DNA of 51,426 nt, taken from contig NZ_REGA01000025.1 of the NCBI RefSeq assembly GCF_003841505.1, forward strand, positions 1 to 51,426, written 5' to 3'. A program made the translations under genes and the position numbers. Within the stretch, counting starts at the first letter, position 1; each line of letters opens with the position of its first letter. A model generated the notes under the pieces. The model did no database searches and was not told the DNA's origin. It was given only the letters and a program-made list of their open reading frames with translations. Source of the stretch: Natrarchaeobius chitinivorans (GTDB lineage: Archaea; Halobacteriota; Halobacteria; Halobacteriales; Natrialbaceae). Shown piece after piece: positions 40,959-48,642 of this stretch.

Positions 40959-41696
40959 CTATCGGTCGTCGGGCCGCGGGACGTTTCGCTCGGCGACCGC
41001 CTCGAGCAGCCGTGCGAGAGCGTCGCCGGCTAACTCGAGCAGTTCTTCACCCCGGCGTTCCGTGCCGTCGCTCGGGTCGCCAACGACGCCGTTTTCCGTG
41101 AATTCGGCCGAATCGTACGCCAGGTTCGCGTGGCTAACCCACTCGCCCCAGCCGTCTGCAGCGCCGGCTTTCGCCTCGTCGATTCGATCCTCGCGGACGA
41201 GATCCGGTTCGCAGTGACGTACGAGTGCGGTCTCGAGCGGACCGCCGTGGCCCATCTCGGCCGAGTGGTCGCCGACGGCCTCGAACCACGTGAACGGAAC
41301 CGCATACGCCGTTCCGTCGCGGGAGAGGCGACCGCCGACCTCGCGAAGGGCGTCGACGTTGCCGCCGTGGCCGTTGACGACGACGACGCGGTCGAAGCCG
41401 TGGTATGCGAGACTCTCGATCGACTCTCGAACGTATCTGCGGAACGTCTCCGGGGACACCCACATCGTTCCGGGGAACTGACGGTGTTCCTCGGCGATAC
41501 CGACGGGAATCGCCGGGGCGCGGACGACCTCGCGATCGACCCGTTCGACGCCGGCGTCCGCGACCGCGCGTGCGGTCAGCACGTCGGTTCCCAGCGGGGC
41601 GTGGGGCCCGTGTTGTTCCGTGCTCCCGACCGGAAGTACGGCGAGATCCGTCTCGAGTTCGGAGACGTCCGTCCACGTCGCCTCGGTGAGATCCAT
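40959..41696 (-). CDS. arfB: Creatininase-family amidohydrolase, ArfB-like
   Basis: A 245-residue protein. VLPVGSTEQHGPHAPLGTDV (metal His/Glu/Asp), PGTMWVSPETFRRY, RVVVVNGHGGNVDAL and DHSAEMGHGGPLETALV are creatininase-family metal motifs. In archaea this family includes ArfB, the formamide hydrolase that follows ArfA in making riboflavin and F420 precursors from GTP. Length and halophilic context fit ArfB, but other creatininase paralogues exist, so the symbol is tentative. ATG 41696 is used because the upstream frame (21 codons) is not conserved-looking. Confidence 0.78.
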   Translation of the reverse strand: MDLTEATWTDVSELETDLAVLPVGSTEQHGPHAPLGTDVLTARAVADAGVERVDREVVRAPAIPVGIAEEHRQFPGTMWVSPETFRRYVRESIESLAYHGFDRVVVVNGHGGNVDALREVGGRLSRDGTAYAVPFTWFEAVGDHSAEMGHGGPLETALVRHCEPDLVREDRIDEAKAGAADGWGEWVSHANLAYDSAEFTENGVVGDPSDGTERRGEELLELAGDALARLLEAVAERNVPRPDDR

Positions 41697-45957: not shown

Positions 45958-46031
45958 GGGCTCGTGGTCTAGCTGGTTATGACGCGGCCTTTACAAGGCC
46001 GAGGTCGGTGGTTCGAACCCGCCCGAGCCCA
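45958..46031 (+). tRNA. tRNA-Val (anticodon UAC)
   Basis: A 74-nt cloverleaf. Acceptor GGGCTCG/CGAGCCC with discriminator A, D arm GTC..GAC, anticodon stem CGGCC/GGCCG with loop TTTACAA (anticodon TAC), variable AGGTC, T arm GGTGG-TTCGAAC-CCGCC. All stems pair. CCA is not encoded. The 3' end is copied three to four times just downstream. Confidence 0.95.
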
Positions 46032-46032
46032 T

Positions 46033-46122
46033 ATTTCTGCCGCGAACAACTTCGTGAGCGGCAGAAATCTGTTGTGAGGGCGGGTTCGAATCAGACGGCA
46101 CCGAGCGAAGCGAGGTGACGGC
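46033..46122 (+). other. tRNA-Val tail unit: covarying hairpin plus inverted T-arm
   Basis: Directly after the tRNA come an 11-bp perfect hairpin ATTTCTGCCGC (46033-46043) / GCGGCAGAAAT (46058-46068), then GGGCGGGTTCGAA (46078-46090), which is the tRNA-Val T arm and acceptor side in reverse orientation, then GAGCGAAGCGAG (46103-46114), then direct copies of the T arm. The same order follows tRNA-Phe. The inverted and direct T arms can fold into a long stem. Confidence 0.7.
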
Positions 46123-46207
46123 GTGGTTCGAACCCGCTCGAGCCACTGGTCGCGTCGTTCGAACTCGCTCGAGCCACTGGTCGCGTCGTTCGAACTCGCT
46201 CGAGCCA
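46123..46207 (+). repeat. Three tandem 31-bp copies of the tRNA-Val 3' end
   Basis: GTGGTTCGAACCCGCTCGAG (46123), GTCGTTCGAACTCGCTCGAG (46154) and the same again (46185), each followed by CCACT and, for the first two, GGTCGC. They copy the T arm and acceptor 3' strand of the adjacent tRNA. They look like stacked attachment sites. Confidence 0.8.
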
Positions 46208-46245
46208 CTCTTCCTGCTGGAATTGACATCCACCCGTGGCTGATG

Positions 46246-46330
46246 CTATAGTAGCCACTGAACGTCATCGCACACCCGATCGCGGGACAGATCGGCGATC
46301 GGTATATCAATCGTTTCAGTTGATACTATA
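46246..46330. repeat. Family-1 palindromic element, copy 4
   Basis: The ends are CTATAGTAGCCACTGAACG and the imperfect complement TCGTTTCAGTTGATACTATA. The core GCACACCCGATCGC is paired with GCGATCGGTATA. It lies 39 bp after the tRNA-Val tail copies. Confidence 0.85.
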
Positions 46331-46471
46331 ACTGTTCCATGTCGGTACCGATGCAACCGCGACCGTCCCGTGTCCCATCGACAATAACGGGCAGTGGTCC
46401 GCCTGACACCTCGAGAAATCGGCGCTGTAATCGAAGACTATCAGTCAGGAGCCTGCAGTTGCCGGGAGTAG

Positions 46472-46918
46472 TCAGTGCTTGAGTCGGGCGACGTTCTCTC
46501 GAATCTGGCTGAAAAACCCGTCTCCGGATTCGGATTCGAGAGCCGAGTGGAGTCTCGAGTTCTCCGGTTCGTCGCGGATGACGACGCGGAGATAGGGCTC
46601 AAGTTGGTCGTAGTTGTCAGCCAGGACGACGGTGTGGTTGTTCTCGTCGTGATCGACGACGCCGGCGTCTGCGAGTTTCGGGACGTGACACTGGACGGAG
46701 GAGACGTAGACGCTCTTGTACTCGTTTTTGGCGACTTCGTCGGGCGGAACGTCGTGTTCCCAGCCGGCGATCCGTTCGGCGAGTTCGGAGAGTTCGATCG
46801 GGCCCTCCTGACCTCGCAGTGCGTAGAGCAGATACCGCCGCCGTCGGTTCGCCAGCAACTCCAGTATAGTGTCCGCCGAAAGCTCATGGCCTTCCTGACT
46901 CGGGGTAAGGGCACCCAT
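46472..46918 (-). CDS. Winged-helix DNA-binding protein (DUF7344/ArsR-like)
   Basis: A 148-residue protein: LSADTILELLANRRRRYLLY (helix 1), ALRGQEGPIELSELAERIAG, KSVYVSSVQCHVPKLADAGV and VDHDENNHTVVLADNYDQLE give the winged helix typical of the haloarchaeal DUF7344 regulators, with a helical C-terminus (PYLRVVIRDEPENSRLHSAL). It has no metal-site cysteines beyond one Cys in the recognition helix. It probably regulates a nearby gene, perhaps within this tRNA-linked island. ATG 46918. Confidence 0.83.
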   Translation of the reverse strand: MGALTPSQEGHELSADTILELLANRRRRYLLYALRGQEGPIELSELAERIAGWEHDVPPDEVAKNEYKSVYVSSVQCHVPKLADAGVVDHDENNHTVVLADNYDQLEPYLRVVIRDEPENSRLHSALESESGDGFFSQIRENVARLKH

Positions 46919-47131
46919 AACAGGATATTACTCGCCGAAGCGGAAAAGGGTGTCTTGAATATCCGATAATCCAACAGGCGGGCGTTTAACGATCGGAATA
47001 CCGACTGTATTCCCGTCGTTACTAATCACGTATTAGTTTCCGTGGTGATTTCATTCGTAGACGTGTGAACGAGTCGAACACCGCTCTCGATTCGAAATCC
47101 TTTTTTATACCATCGACGGAGATAGAGACGC

Positions 47132-47205
47132 GCCGCCTTAGCTCAGACTGGGAGAGCACTCGACTGAAGATCGAGCTGTCCCCGGTTCAAATCCGGGAGG
47201 CGGCA
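47132..47205 (+). tRNA. tRNA-Phe (anticodon GAA)
   Basis: A 74-nt cloverleaf. Acceptor GCCGCCT/AGGCGGC with discriminator A, D arm GCTC..GAGC, anticodon stem CTCGA/TCGAG with loop CTGAAGA (anticodon GAA), variable CTGTC, T arm CCCGG-TTCAAAT-CCGGG. A TATA box TTTTTTATAC lies about 27 nt upstream. Its 3' end is repeated at four further places in the next 2.3 kb. Confidence 0.95.
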
Positions 47206-47334
47206 TTTCTGCTGCGAGCAACACCGCGAGCAGCAGAAATCCATCCGAGTGGATTTGAACTAGAGAACACGCAGCGCGAGCGAAGCGAGCGACCGTGTTC
47301 GCGTGGTTCAAATCCGGGAGGCGGTATGGTTTTT
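47205..47334 (+). other. tRNA-Phe tail unit: covarying hairpin, inverted T-arm, direct tail copy, T6
   Basis: ATTTCTGCTGC (47205-47215) pairs with GCAGCAGAAAT (47230-47240). GGATTTGAAC (47251-47260), the T arm inverted, pairs with GTTCAAATCC (47306-47315). Between them lies GAGCGAAGCGAG (47278-47289) and ACCGTGTTCGCGTG. The direct copy continues GGGAGGCGGTAT and is followed by T6 (47329-47334). Compared with the Val unit, the first hairpin shows a compensating C-G to T-A change. Confidence 0.7.
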
Positions 47335-47343
47335 TCACACGAT

Positions 47344-47440
47344 TTCCATTCGAGCGGGAGCACTCGACTGTAGATCAAGCTGTCCCCGTTCTCGTGAGCG
47401 AAGCGAGCGACCGTGTTCGCGTTGTTCAAATCCGGAAGGA
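47344..47440 (+). other. Partial tRNA-Phe-like sequence plus another tail copy
   Basis: CGGGAGCACTCGACTGTAGA then TCAAGCTGTCCCCG (about 47354-47388) matches the D arm, anticodon arm and variable region of tRNA-Phe with changes, including GTA in place of the GAA anticodon. It is followed by GAGCGAAGCGAG (47396-47407), ACCGTGTTCGCGT and TTGTTCAAATCCGGAAGG, a decayed T arm. It is a pseudo-tRNA, not a functional tRNA, because both acceptor strands are missing. The 270 bp after it contain no gene. Confidence 0.6.
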
Positions 47441-47712
47441 AACACCCATATTTTCCGTCATCTCGAGATCCACCGAGAGAAATGAAGAAGGAGAGTCAGT
47501 GTTCAGCGGCTATTGGTTGCTTCGAGCTGGTTGGGGGACCGGCCGTGTCGGAGAGGCTTGCTTGTCGGCTTCACGTCGGATCGATTGATACGGATTGGTT
47601 TCCGAAGTGACTCCGTTCTACCGATACCCCCTGCAACACGTGTTCATGCGGGAACAATGATGGCCAGATGTGGCCGGTTCGAAGCTTGCGATTGCCCGAC
47701 GGACGATGTCGG

Positions 47713-48642
47713 TCAACTCGTCCAGTAGGTCATCGGCGGATCCGGCCGACCGACGAAACAGTAGCTGGTGAACCCGTAGTGTTCGATGATCGCTTTGGCA
47801 TCCTCGGCGTTTTCTTTCTCGTCGAATATGAGGAGGGCACTGCGCCCCGATCGGACTCGCCAGCGATTGCCGCTAATCTCGTCGATGGTCAGGTCCGAGG
47901 GGTCGATATTGATGCAGTCCTCGCTTCCTCCGAAGGATCCCGAAGCGGAAGGTGCGTTCCCGTTCTCGAGCCAGTAGGTCATCGGCGGATCCGGCCGACC
48001 GACGAAACAGTAGCTGGTGAACCCGTAGTGTTCGATGATCGCTTTGGCATCCTCGGCGTTTTCTTTCTCGTCGAATATGAGGAGGGCACTGCGCCCCGAT
48101 CGGACCCGCCAGCGATTGCCGCTAATCTCGTCGATGGTCAGGTCCGAGGGGTCGACGTTGATGCAGTCCTCGCTGAACGAAGGTTTGGGTTCGTCGTCAT
48201 CCTCCTCGTCCGGATCCTTCTCGTCGTTATCGTCCTCCTCAGCCGAATCCGTCTCGTCGTCGTCCTCCTCAACCGGAGCCGTCTCGTCATCATCCTCCTC
48301 AGCCGGATCCGTCTCGTCACCGCCGTCAGTGGATCCCAAATCATCGTCAGAATCGTCGTCACCGTGGTCGGCGTGTTCCGTATCATCGTCGGAACCGTCG
48401 TCACCGTGGTCGGCGGCTTCCGAATCTTCGCCGGAATCGCCGGTGGACTCGGAGTCACCATCGGAACCGGTGCCGGAACCATCGTCACTACCGGCCCCTT
48501 CATCGTCCGAACCGCTGTTGATCGTGATCTCGATGTCATCACCGAGACATCCGGCCAGCGCGGTCGCCCCCGAGGCAGCAACGGCCGCCCGAAGCATCGA
48601 TCGGCGAGTCGGTTTTCGATCTGATCGGTTACTGTCGGGCAT
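47713..48642 (-). CDS. Tat lipoprotein with acidic stalk and two nearly identical domains
   Basis: A 309-residue protein. The signal RRSMLRAAVAASGATALAGC gives lipid-modified Cys32, then an Asp/Glu/Ser-rich stalk (about 43-155). Two copies follow of a 65-residue domain with SGNRWRVRSGRSALLIFDEK, ENAEDAKAIIEHYGF and CFVGRPDPPMTYW (about 158-224 and 241-307). The domain occurs in many bacterial secreted proteins (HYGF..xCFVGRPxPxMxYW), function unknown. The copies differ by about three bases over 204 bp, so the duplication is recent or gene-converted. It lies inside the tRNA-Phe-tail bounded region, which points to transfer. Confidence 0.85.
   Translation of the reverse strand: MPDSNRSDRKPTRRSMLRAAVAASGATALAGCLGDDIEITINSGSDDEGAGSDDGSGTGSDGDSESTGDSGEDSEAADHGDDGSDDDTEHADHGDDDSDDDLGSTDGGDETDPAEEDDDETAPVEEDDDETDSAEEDDNDEKDPDEEDDDEPKPSFSEDCINVDPSDLTIDEISGNRWRVRSGRSALLIFDEKENAEDAKAIIEHYGFTSYCFVGRPDPPMTYWLENGNAPSASGSFGGSEDCINIDPSDLTIDEISGNRWRVRSGRSALLIFDEKENAEDAKAIIEHYGFTSYCFVGRPDPPMTYWTS

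Follow-up and report, generated by a model that had tools for sequence, protein, structure and literature searches.

Repeat units bearing cognate tRNA 3' ends downstream of haloarchaeal tRNA genes: candidate arrays of small tRNA-targeted DNA cassettes

Introduction

What is the origin of sequences that follow a tRNA gene and repeat that gene's own 3' end, once inverted and once in direct orientation? The question is raised by a 51,426-nucleotide contig (NCBI RefSeq NZ_REGA01000025.1, referred to here as the window) of the 4.57-Mb genome of the haloarchaeon Natrarchaeobius chitinivorans, in which tRNA-Val and tRNA-Phe are each trailed by such an arrangement. The initial annotation of this DNA proposed a small tRNA-targeting element that acquires the tail of its host, a stack of attachment sites, or read-through RNAs mimicking tRNA T arms.

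Unit architecture at tRNA-Val and tRNA-Phe

The host genes, tRNA-Val(TAC) (45958..46031, + strand) and tRNA-Phe(GAA) (47132..47205, +), were called by ARAGORN and by Rfam, the tRNA match having an E-value of ~1e-13 for both. Behind each lies the order originally described: hairpin, inverted T arm, GAGCGAAGCGAG, and direct T arm with acceptor strand. In general form the unit reads M1-A'-M2-A and measures ~105-145 bp, where M1 is a hairpin (H1) with a spacer, A' an inverted copy of the T loop and 3' T stem, M2 a long hairpin tipped by GNA, and A the tRNA stretch nt 53-73 repeated in direct orientation. The direction of A' is ambiguous where the loop is the palindrome TTCGAA, but its inverted orientation is evident from loops of the form TTCAAAT. 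The orientation of A and A' alternates, so each hairpin module sits between inverted T-loop sites. M1 and M2 together make up ~70-120 bp that is hairpin throughout, and the units contain no integrase or other genes, as a tRNA-targeted integrative element would.

At tRNA-Val, M1 (46032..46078, +) comprises H1 (46033-46068), with the stem ATTTCTGCCGC/GCGGCAGAAAT and tandem GA mismatches, and a short spacer. It is followed by A' (46079..46090, -; GGCGGGTTCGAA), the inverted T loop and 3' T stem of this tRNA; by M2 (46091..46125, +), a hairpin carrying GAGCGAAGCGAG with a GNA triloop between tandem GA; and by A (46126..46146, +), the direct copy of tRNA-Val nt 53-73, identical at ~19/22 positions. 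Two extra tandem copies of 31 bp, with decayed Val tails, complete the array (46147..46209, +).

At tRNA-Phe, M1 with its H1 (47206..47247, +) is identical over its first 36 nt to an M1 found 3' of tRNA-Gly in another genus (G018). The inverted T-arm copy A' (47248..47259, -; AGTGGATTTGAA), a long M2 hairpin tipped by GAGCGAAGCGAG (47260..47305, +), and the direct copy of tRNA-Phe nt 53-73 (47306..47326, +; 21/22 over the 22-nt tail) follow. Further on, tRNA-Phe nt 23-53, from the anticodon arm to the 5' strand of the T stem, recurs at 94% identity (47358..47388, +); this copy ends exactly at nt 53, with a hairpin module placed exactly at 53|54 (47389..47423, +) and a second, decayed direct tail (47424..47444, +; 17/22) beyond. 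This tRNA-Phe-specific variant, consisting of TTTTTCRCACG..., the anticodon-arm copy, a hairpin and a tail, is conserved in two families (L017, window 47340-47444; L051; L099; L111), which hints at age or function.

The compensating pair change reported between the Val and Phe hairpins (C-G/T-A) is present in the sequence, as is the pairing of at least 10 bp between the inverted and direct Phe T arms. All three occurrences of GAGCGNAGCGAG in the 51-kb window, where 0.11 would be expected, fall within units, as do all three copies of the GAGCGAAGCGAG string. That the two loci might resemble each other through this common string alone is rejected, the string itself being variable (GNA, GA-RC..GY-GA). 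Compared with dinucleotide shuffles, the units fold strongly both as DNA (z -5.2 at the Val locus, -4.2 at the Phe locus) and as RNA (z -6.0 for Phe), and none of 200 shuffles folded as well as either.

Recurrence within the genome and across the Halobacteriales

The initial annotation would have been undermined had such units been absent near other tRNAs. In the 300 nt downstream of tRNA genes, the same architecture was found after 20 of 42 in this genome, at 1-4 copies per tRNA, and it recurs in most relatives. Units also occur at tRNA-Trp and in two displaced cases; these account for three apparent orphans, which were traced to tRNA-Trp (absent from the Infernal list), tRNA-Arg(TCT) and elongator tRNA-Met, so the existence of orphan units here was rejected. 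Nearly every tail copy, scored as at least 17/22 within 900 nt, has an inverted copy directly upstream.

The copies are cognate, as the initial annotation had claimed from two loci. Where a unit is present, the tail of its own tRNA scores above all other tRNA tails almost without exception, and in a set of 112 units drawn from this genome and its relatives, identity to the cognate tRNA at acceptor positions reaches 92%, compared with 49% when tRNAs are shuffled (z 19). In the same 112 units, pairing of A' with its own T stem exceeds that with others (z 11). Chance, or a bare T-loop consensus, is rejected because the acceptor parts match the cognate tRNA.

Among relatives, tail copies follow tRNA-Val in 18/26 genomes, tRNA-Phe in 15/27, initiator tRNA-Met in 21/30 and tRNA-Gly in 13/21, with 0 to 5 tandem copies per tRNA; about half of tRNAs have no units, and a tRNA with units in one genome can lack them in a relative. 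The pattern ATTTGAAY-N25..55-GTTCAAATCC was matched in 16 of the 19 genomes sampled from the Halobacteriales, compared with 1 of 101 from elsewhere in the phylum, and its reversed control gave no matches. Units were seen in no fewer than nine families within the order. The phenomenon is therefore larger than the two loci first noted, being genome-wide and order-wide. Two haloarchaeal plasmid or megaplasmid records contain a match to the pattern. Viral contigs (IMG/VR) yielded no unit, three pattern matches there, lying in coding context away from any tRNA, being rejected as chance, and phage records gave no match.

Stem conservation and strand asymmetry

In H1 the stem leads into tandem G.A pairs and then, through two base pairs, to a loop. 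In 27 distinct H1 stems the inner pairs are Watson-Crick in 151 of 162 cases (97 +/- 4 when shuffled), several pair types occurring at each position, and the pairs inside the GA step switch jointly from AC/GT to GC/GC in 26 of the 27. In M2 the stem formed by A' and A is carried on, followed by a conserved pattern of internal mismatches that often culminates in a GA-RC-GNA-GY-GA tip. This tip is found 45 times on the tRNA strand and once reversed, and the looser GA-RC..GY-GA motif of M1 100 times as against 6, suggesting that one folded DNA strand may matter.

Structured RNAs tolerate G-U pairs and not A-C. GT and AC mismatches were counted in the stems of the units, with tRNA stems measured in the same way as a control. 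The GT:AC ratio was 45:45 in the A'/A stems, 8:6 in H1 and 23:14 in M2, compared with 24:2 in tRNA stems; lacking a wobble preference, the palindromes look to be maintained at the level of DNA. The initial annotation took its compensating pair change as a sign of selection on structure, and in H1 pairing is indeed kept; with the G-U preference absent, such covariation does not by itself imply selection on RNA.

Breakpoints, gain or loss of units and shared modules

The edges of the copies are fixed. Of the direct copies, which are cognate to their host, 61 have nt 52/53 as their first position and 64 have nt 73 as their last. Several genomes contain truncated copies of the 5' part of tRNA-Phe that stop at nt 53 or 55 and have a hairpin at that point, and a partial tRNA-Val copy in Natrialba swarupiae (G003) likewise has its hairpin at 53|54.

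An empty and a filled site differing by exactly one element are seen in Natronococcus sp. A-GB1 and N. amylolyticus, which differ behind tRNA-Val by a single 106-bp unit. The N. amylolyticus array starts at base 1 after the tRNA, A-GB1 has the extra unit before it, and past this unit the arrays align from the first base over 794 bp at 95%. The extra unit is nearly the same as one from Natrialba hulunbeirensis. Along arrays, the distal copy is the more decayed in 22 steps and the less decayed in 6, which points to growth or replacement at the tRNA side. In another genome (G086) unit pairs are tandemly duplicated in alternation.

The same modules are common to different tRNAs and genera, and the T-arm parts that flank them remain local. 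One M2 family, GAGGTTCTGC..GCAGGTTCTC, has 28 exact matches spread over 15 genomes, and its reversed pattern has none. Each of the 28 lies downstream of a tRNA in the same orientation, 54-317 nt away, with ~17 tRNA species as hosts. The tails of these copies match the cognate tRNA at 14-21 of 21 positions, nearly all being recognisable. M1 and M2 also combine independently, as in a Natronoglomus unit that joins an M1 known from Natronococcus and Natrialba to an M2 known from Natronorubrum.

Origin of the units

Two of the original proposals, a tail-acquiring element and stacked attachment sites, agree with the wider data: the cognate tails, the breakpoints at the T-loop edge, the clean gain or loss of one unit and a module shared by ~17 tRNA species. 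The initial interpretation as a whole is partly supported. The account that we favour, though with slightly less than even confidence, is that the units are arrays of small non-autonomous tRNA-targeted DNA cassettes whose modules are exchanged at T-loop sites. The units would be inserted by a recombinase, most likely of the tyrosine type, with the 7-bp T loop serving as its crossover. As A and A' alternate, modules are bounded by inverted TTCRAAY sites, which makes M1 and M2 exchangeable between loci with T stem and acceptor parts staying local; the recombinase would thus swap M1 or M2 between T-loop sites, leaving the tRNA-specific flanks in place. Unequal homologous recombination over the 21-bp tails would then add or remove whole units, and recognition of the strand-specific GNA/tandem-GA hairpins may take place on single-stranded DNA in folded form. 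Recombination at the T loop would be the simplest account of cognate flanks combined with travelling modules.

Several observations weigh against this account. No recombinase tied to the units was identified, the nearby integrases belonging to separate kb-scale elements; neither circles nor hairpin intermediates were observed, and viral contigs and phage records yielded no units. A double-stranded circle of 106 bp would be strained, how the inverted A' first arises is left without explanation, and the one-strand loop motif (45:1) equally suits a role in RNA. Ordinary homologous recombination, if unequal and acting on the 21-bp tail and flanks, could also make an array grow at one tRNA, and the alternating duplication in G086 looks like a case of this.

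A bolder form of the cassette account, which we consider possible but somewhat doubtful, envisages an exchange system spanning the whole haloarchaeal order. The 7-bp T loop would be a universal recombination site in all tRNA genes, and a dedicated recombinase, possibly acting on single DNA strands in folded form, would insert gene-free hairpin modules flanked by inverted T loops and swap them between tRNA loci, much like a gene-free integron.

Alternatively, the units could be a passive array: remnants of old tRNA-targeted integrations, reshuffled by ordinary homologous and unequal recombination and by template switching at palindromes, with neither a dedicated recombinase nor a function. Tail copies behind tRNAs are a classic mark of integration, unit pairs are duplicated in tandem in G086, whole units are common to the neighbouring genera of N. 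hulunbeirensis and Natronococcus A-GB1 at the same tRNA, and the missing wobble preference suits a DNA process. However, homology across tRNA species amounts to ~7-10 nt of T loop, yet one M2 is found behind ~17 species with cognate tails, and template switching towards perfect palindromes would erase the tandem GA mismatches and GNA tips, whose confinement to one strand is 100:6 and 45:1, respectively. We regard a purely passive origin as unlikely.

Less probable still is that the units act as RNA, the read-through trailer folding into H1 and H2 and serving in tRNA maturation, in termination or as T-arm decoys. Their constant position downstream on the tRNA strand, strong folding relative to shuffles, the confinement of GNA loops and tandem GA pairs to one strand, and H1 covariation would all suit such a role. 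Against it stand the GT:AC counts, which differ from those of tRNA stems in all three classes of stem, and the fact that about half of tRNAs do without units, as can the same tRNA in relatives. Rfam covariance models run over the units reached gathering score only at the tRNAs themselves. The T-arm mimicry first suggested is weakened by the even GT:AC ratio of the A'/A stems.

Were cassette exchange to be confirmed, around half of the examined tRNA genes in an archaeal order would carry an undescribed and actively reshuffled repeat system, with the most conserved part of the tRNA serving as its address. This would bear on the preference of integrating elements for tRNA genes and on the evolution of tails and attachment sites, and could be tested in cultured, genetically tractable haloarchaea. 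The annotation of integrative elements would be complicated as well, since tail copies alone do not here mark the end of a large island.

Relationship to larger integrative elements

The tRNAs that host units are also used by ordinary integrative elements, though at other sub-sites. At tRNA-Gly(TCC) a 44-nt anticodon-to-end copy lies 2.5 kb away with an integrase remnant, a unit being found beyond it, and at tRNA-Arg(TCT) a 13-bp 3'-end copy has an integrase beside it. Large integrative elements displace units, and among the cases seen there is no sign that they create them.

That the tail copies are decoy or spare attachment sites, taking incoming elements and so sparing the tRNA gene, is very improbable: related DNA (648 bp, 94-95%) at the tRNA-Arg(TCT) 3' end and at the displaced Arg-unit tail 16 kb on, together with the displacement of units in this genome (at Gly, at Arg and probably at elongator Met) and in N. 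swarupiae (at Val), would suit it, but insertion of a unit between the tRNA and an older element would explain the Arg case just as well, most of the elements seen use the tRNA itself (anticodon-to-end or 13-bp 3'-end sites) and not a T-loop site, and M1, A' and M2 are left unexplained.

The decayed integrative element at tRNA-Gly(TCC) (L176, G000:C15:104800-109600) contains two intact units and a truncated third at its tRNA-proximal side, with a further partial unit past its right end, and units may therefore ride on larger elements too. In the tRNA-Val region of N. swarupiae (L214/L215), insertion-sequence-like ends, GGAGCGTGTCATAGAA and TTCTATGACACGCTC, appear to interrupt the H1 of the displaced unit, and an integrase gene adjoins the displaced Val tail.

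Comparison with known systems

Integron attC sites are palindromic, strand-specific, imperfect hairpins with a G|TT core, and new units are added at one end of the array. The tRNA units resemble them in all of these respects, but their sites read TTYGAAC / GTTCRAA and not RYYYAAC / GTTRRRY, they have neither a coding cassette nor a demonstrated integron integrase, and the site is the host's own tRNA.

The 178-bp repeats of E. coli tyrT (rtT RNA) lie in tandem behind a tRNA gene and each contain a copy of the tRNA 3' end, as the units do. To our knowledge these repeats are confined to a single locus and lack an inverted T-arm copy and exchange of modules between tRNAs, whereas the units occupy many loci, possess the inverted copy and have modules in common between tRNAs. 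CRISPR arrays are similar in their repeat duplication and polarised growth beside a fixed leader-like site, and differ in that here the inserts are common palindromic modules and the repeat is a tRNA tail; unique spacers between near-identical repeats were not found, the spacers being recurrent module families.

Tyrosine-integrase elements in tRNA genes include some that use a T-loop sub-site (PMC8371274). As in these, a direct tRNA 3' copy flanks the insert, the left edge lies at the T loop, and an intact tRNA is retained beside the old tail; unlike these, the unit is ~106 bp without a gene, has an inverted T-arm copy, and shares its modules across ~17 tRNA species. The PATEs and other small mobile repeats of Haloquadratum are dispersed and have IS605-like palindromic ends (PMC3119063). 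Units resemble PATEs in being short, non-autonomous, palindromic haloarchaeal mobile DNA, with target duplication seen only as the tail copy, but they are found only behind tRNA genes and carry copies of the local tRNA. Dispersal to many non-tRNA sites, as in MITE, PATE or REP-type repeats, was not observed, all 28 copies of the M2 family lying behind tRNAs.

The units thus fail one tested defining feature each of attachment arrays (they lack genes), attC sites (the core is wrong) and PATEs (they are not dispersed), and, with caution and with a mechanism that is a proposal, appear to be new in kind. No prior description was found in Rfam or in the largely open-access literature searched, a negative result that is weak evidence.

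Other features of the window

Just past the Val array lies a MITE-like repeat of ~85 bp (46246-46330) with terminal inverted repeats TATAGTA..ACTGAA / TTCAGT..TACTATA, present in at least 40 copies in this genome at 86-93% identity, one of them behind tRNA-Asn. An 88-nt tRNA-Glu(CTC) called by ARAGORN (41267-41354, -) is absent from the Rfam tRNA search of the genome and is possibly a pseudogene or a false call. Downstream of the Phe array, 47713-48642 (-) encodes a predicted secreted, very acidic protein, in which a domain of ~70 residues is internally duplicated (DPSDLTIDEISGNRWRVRSGRSALLIFDEKENAEDAKAIIEHYGFTSYCFVGRPDPPMTYW).
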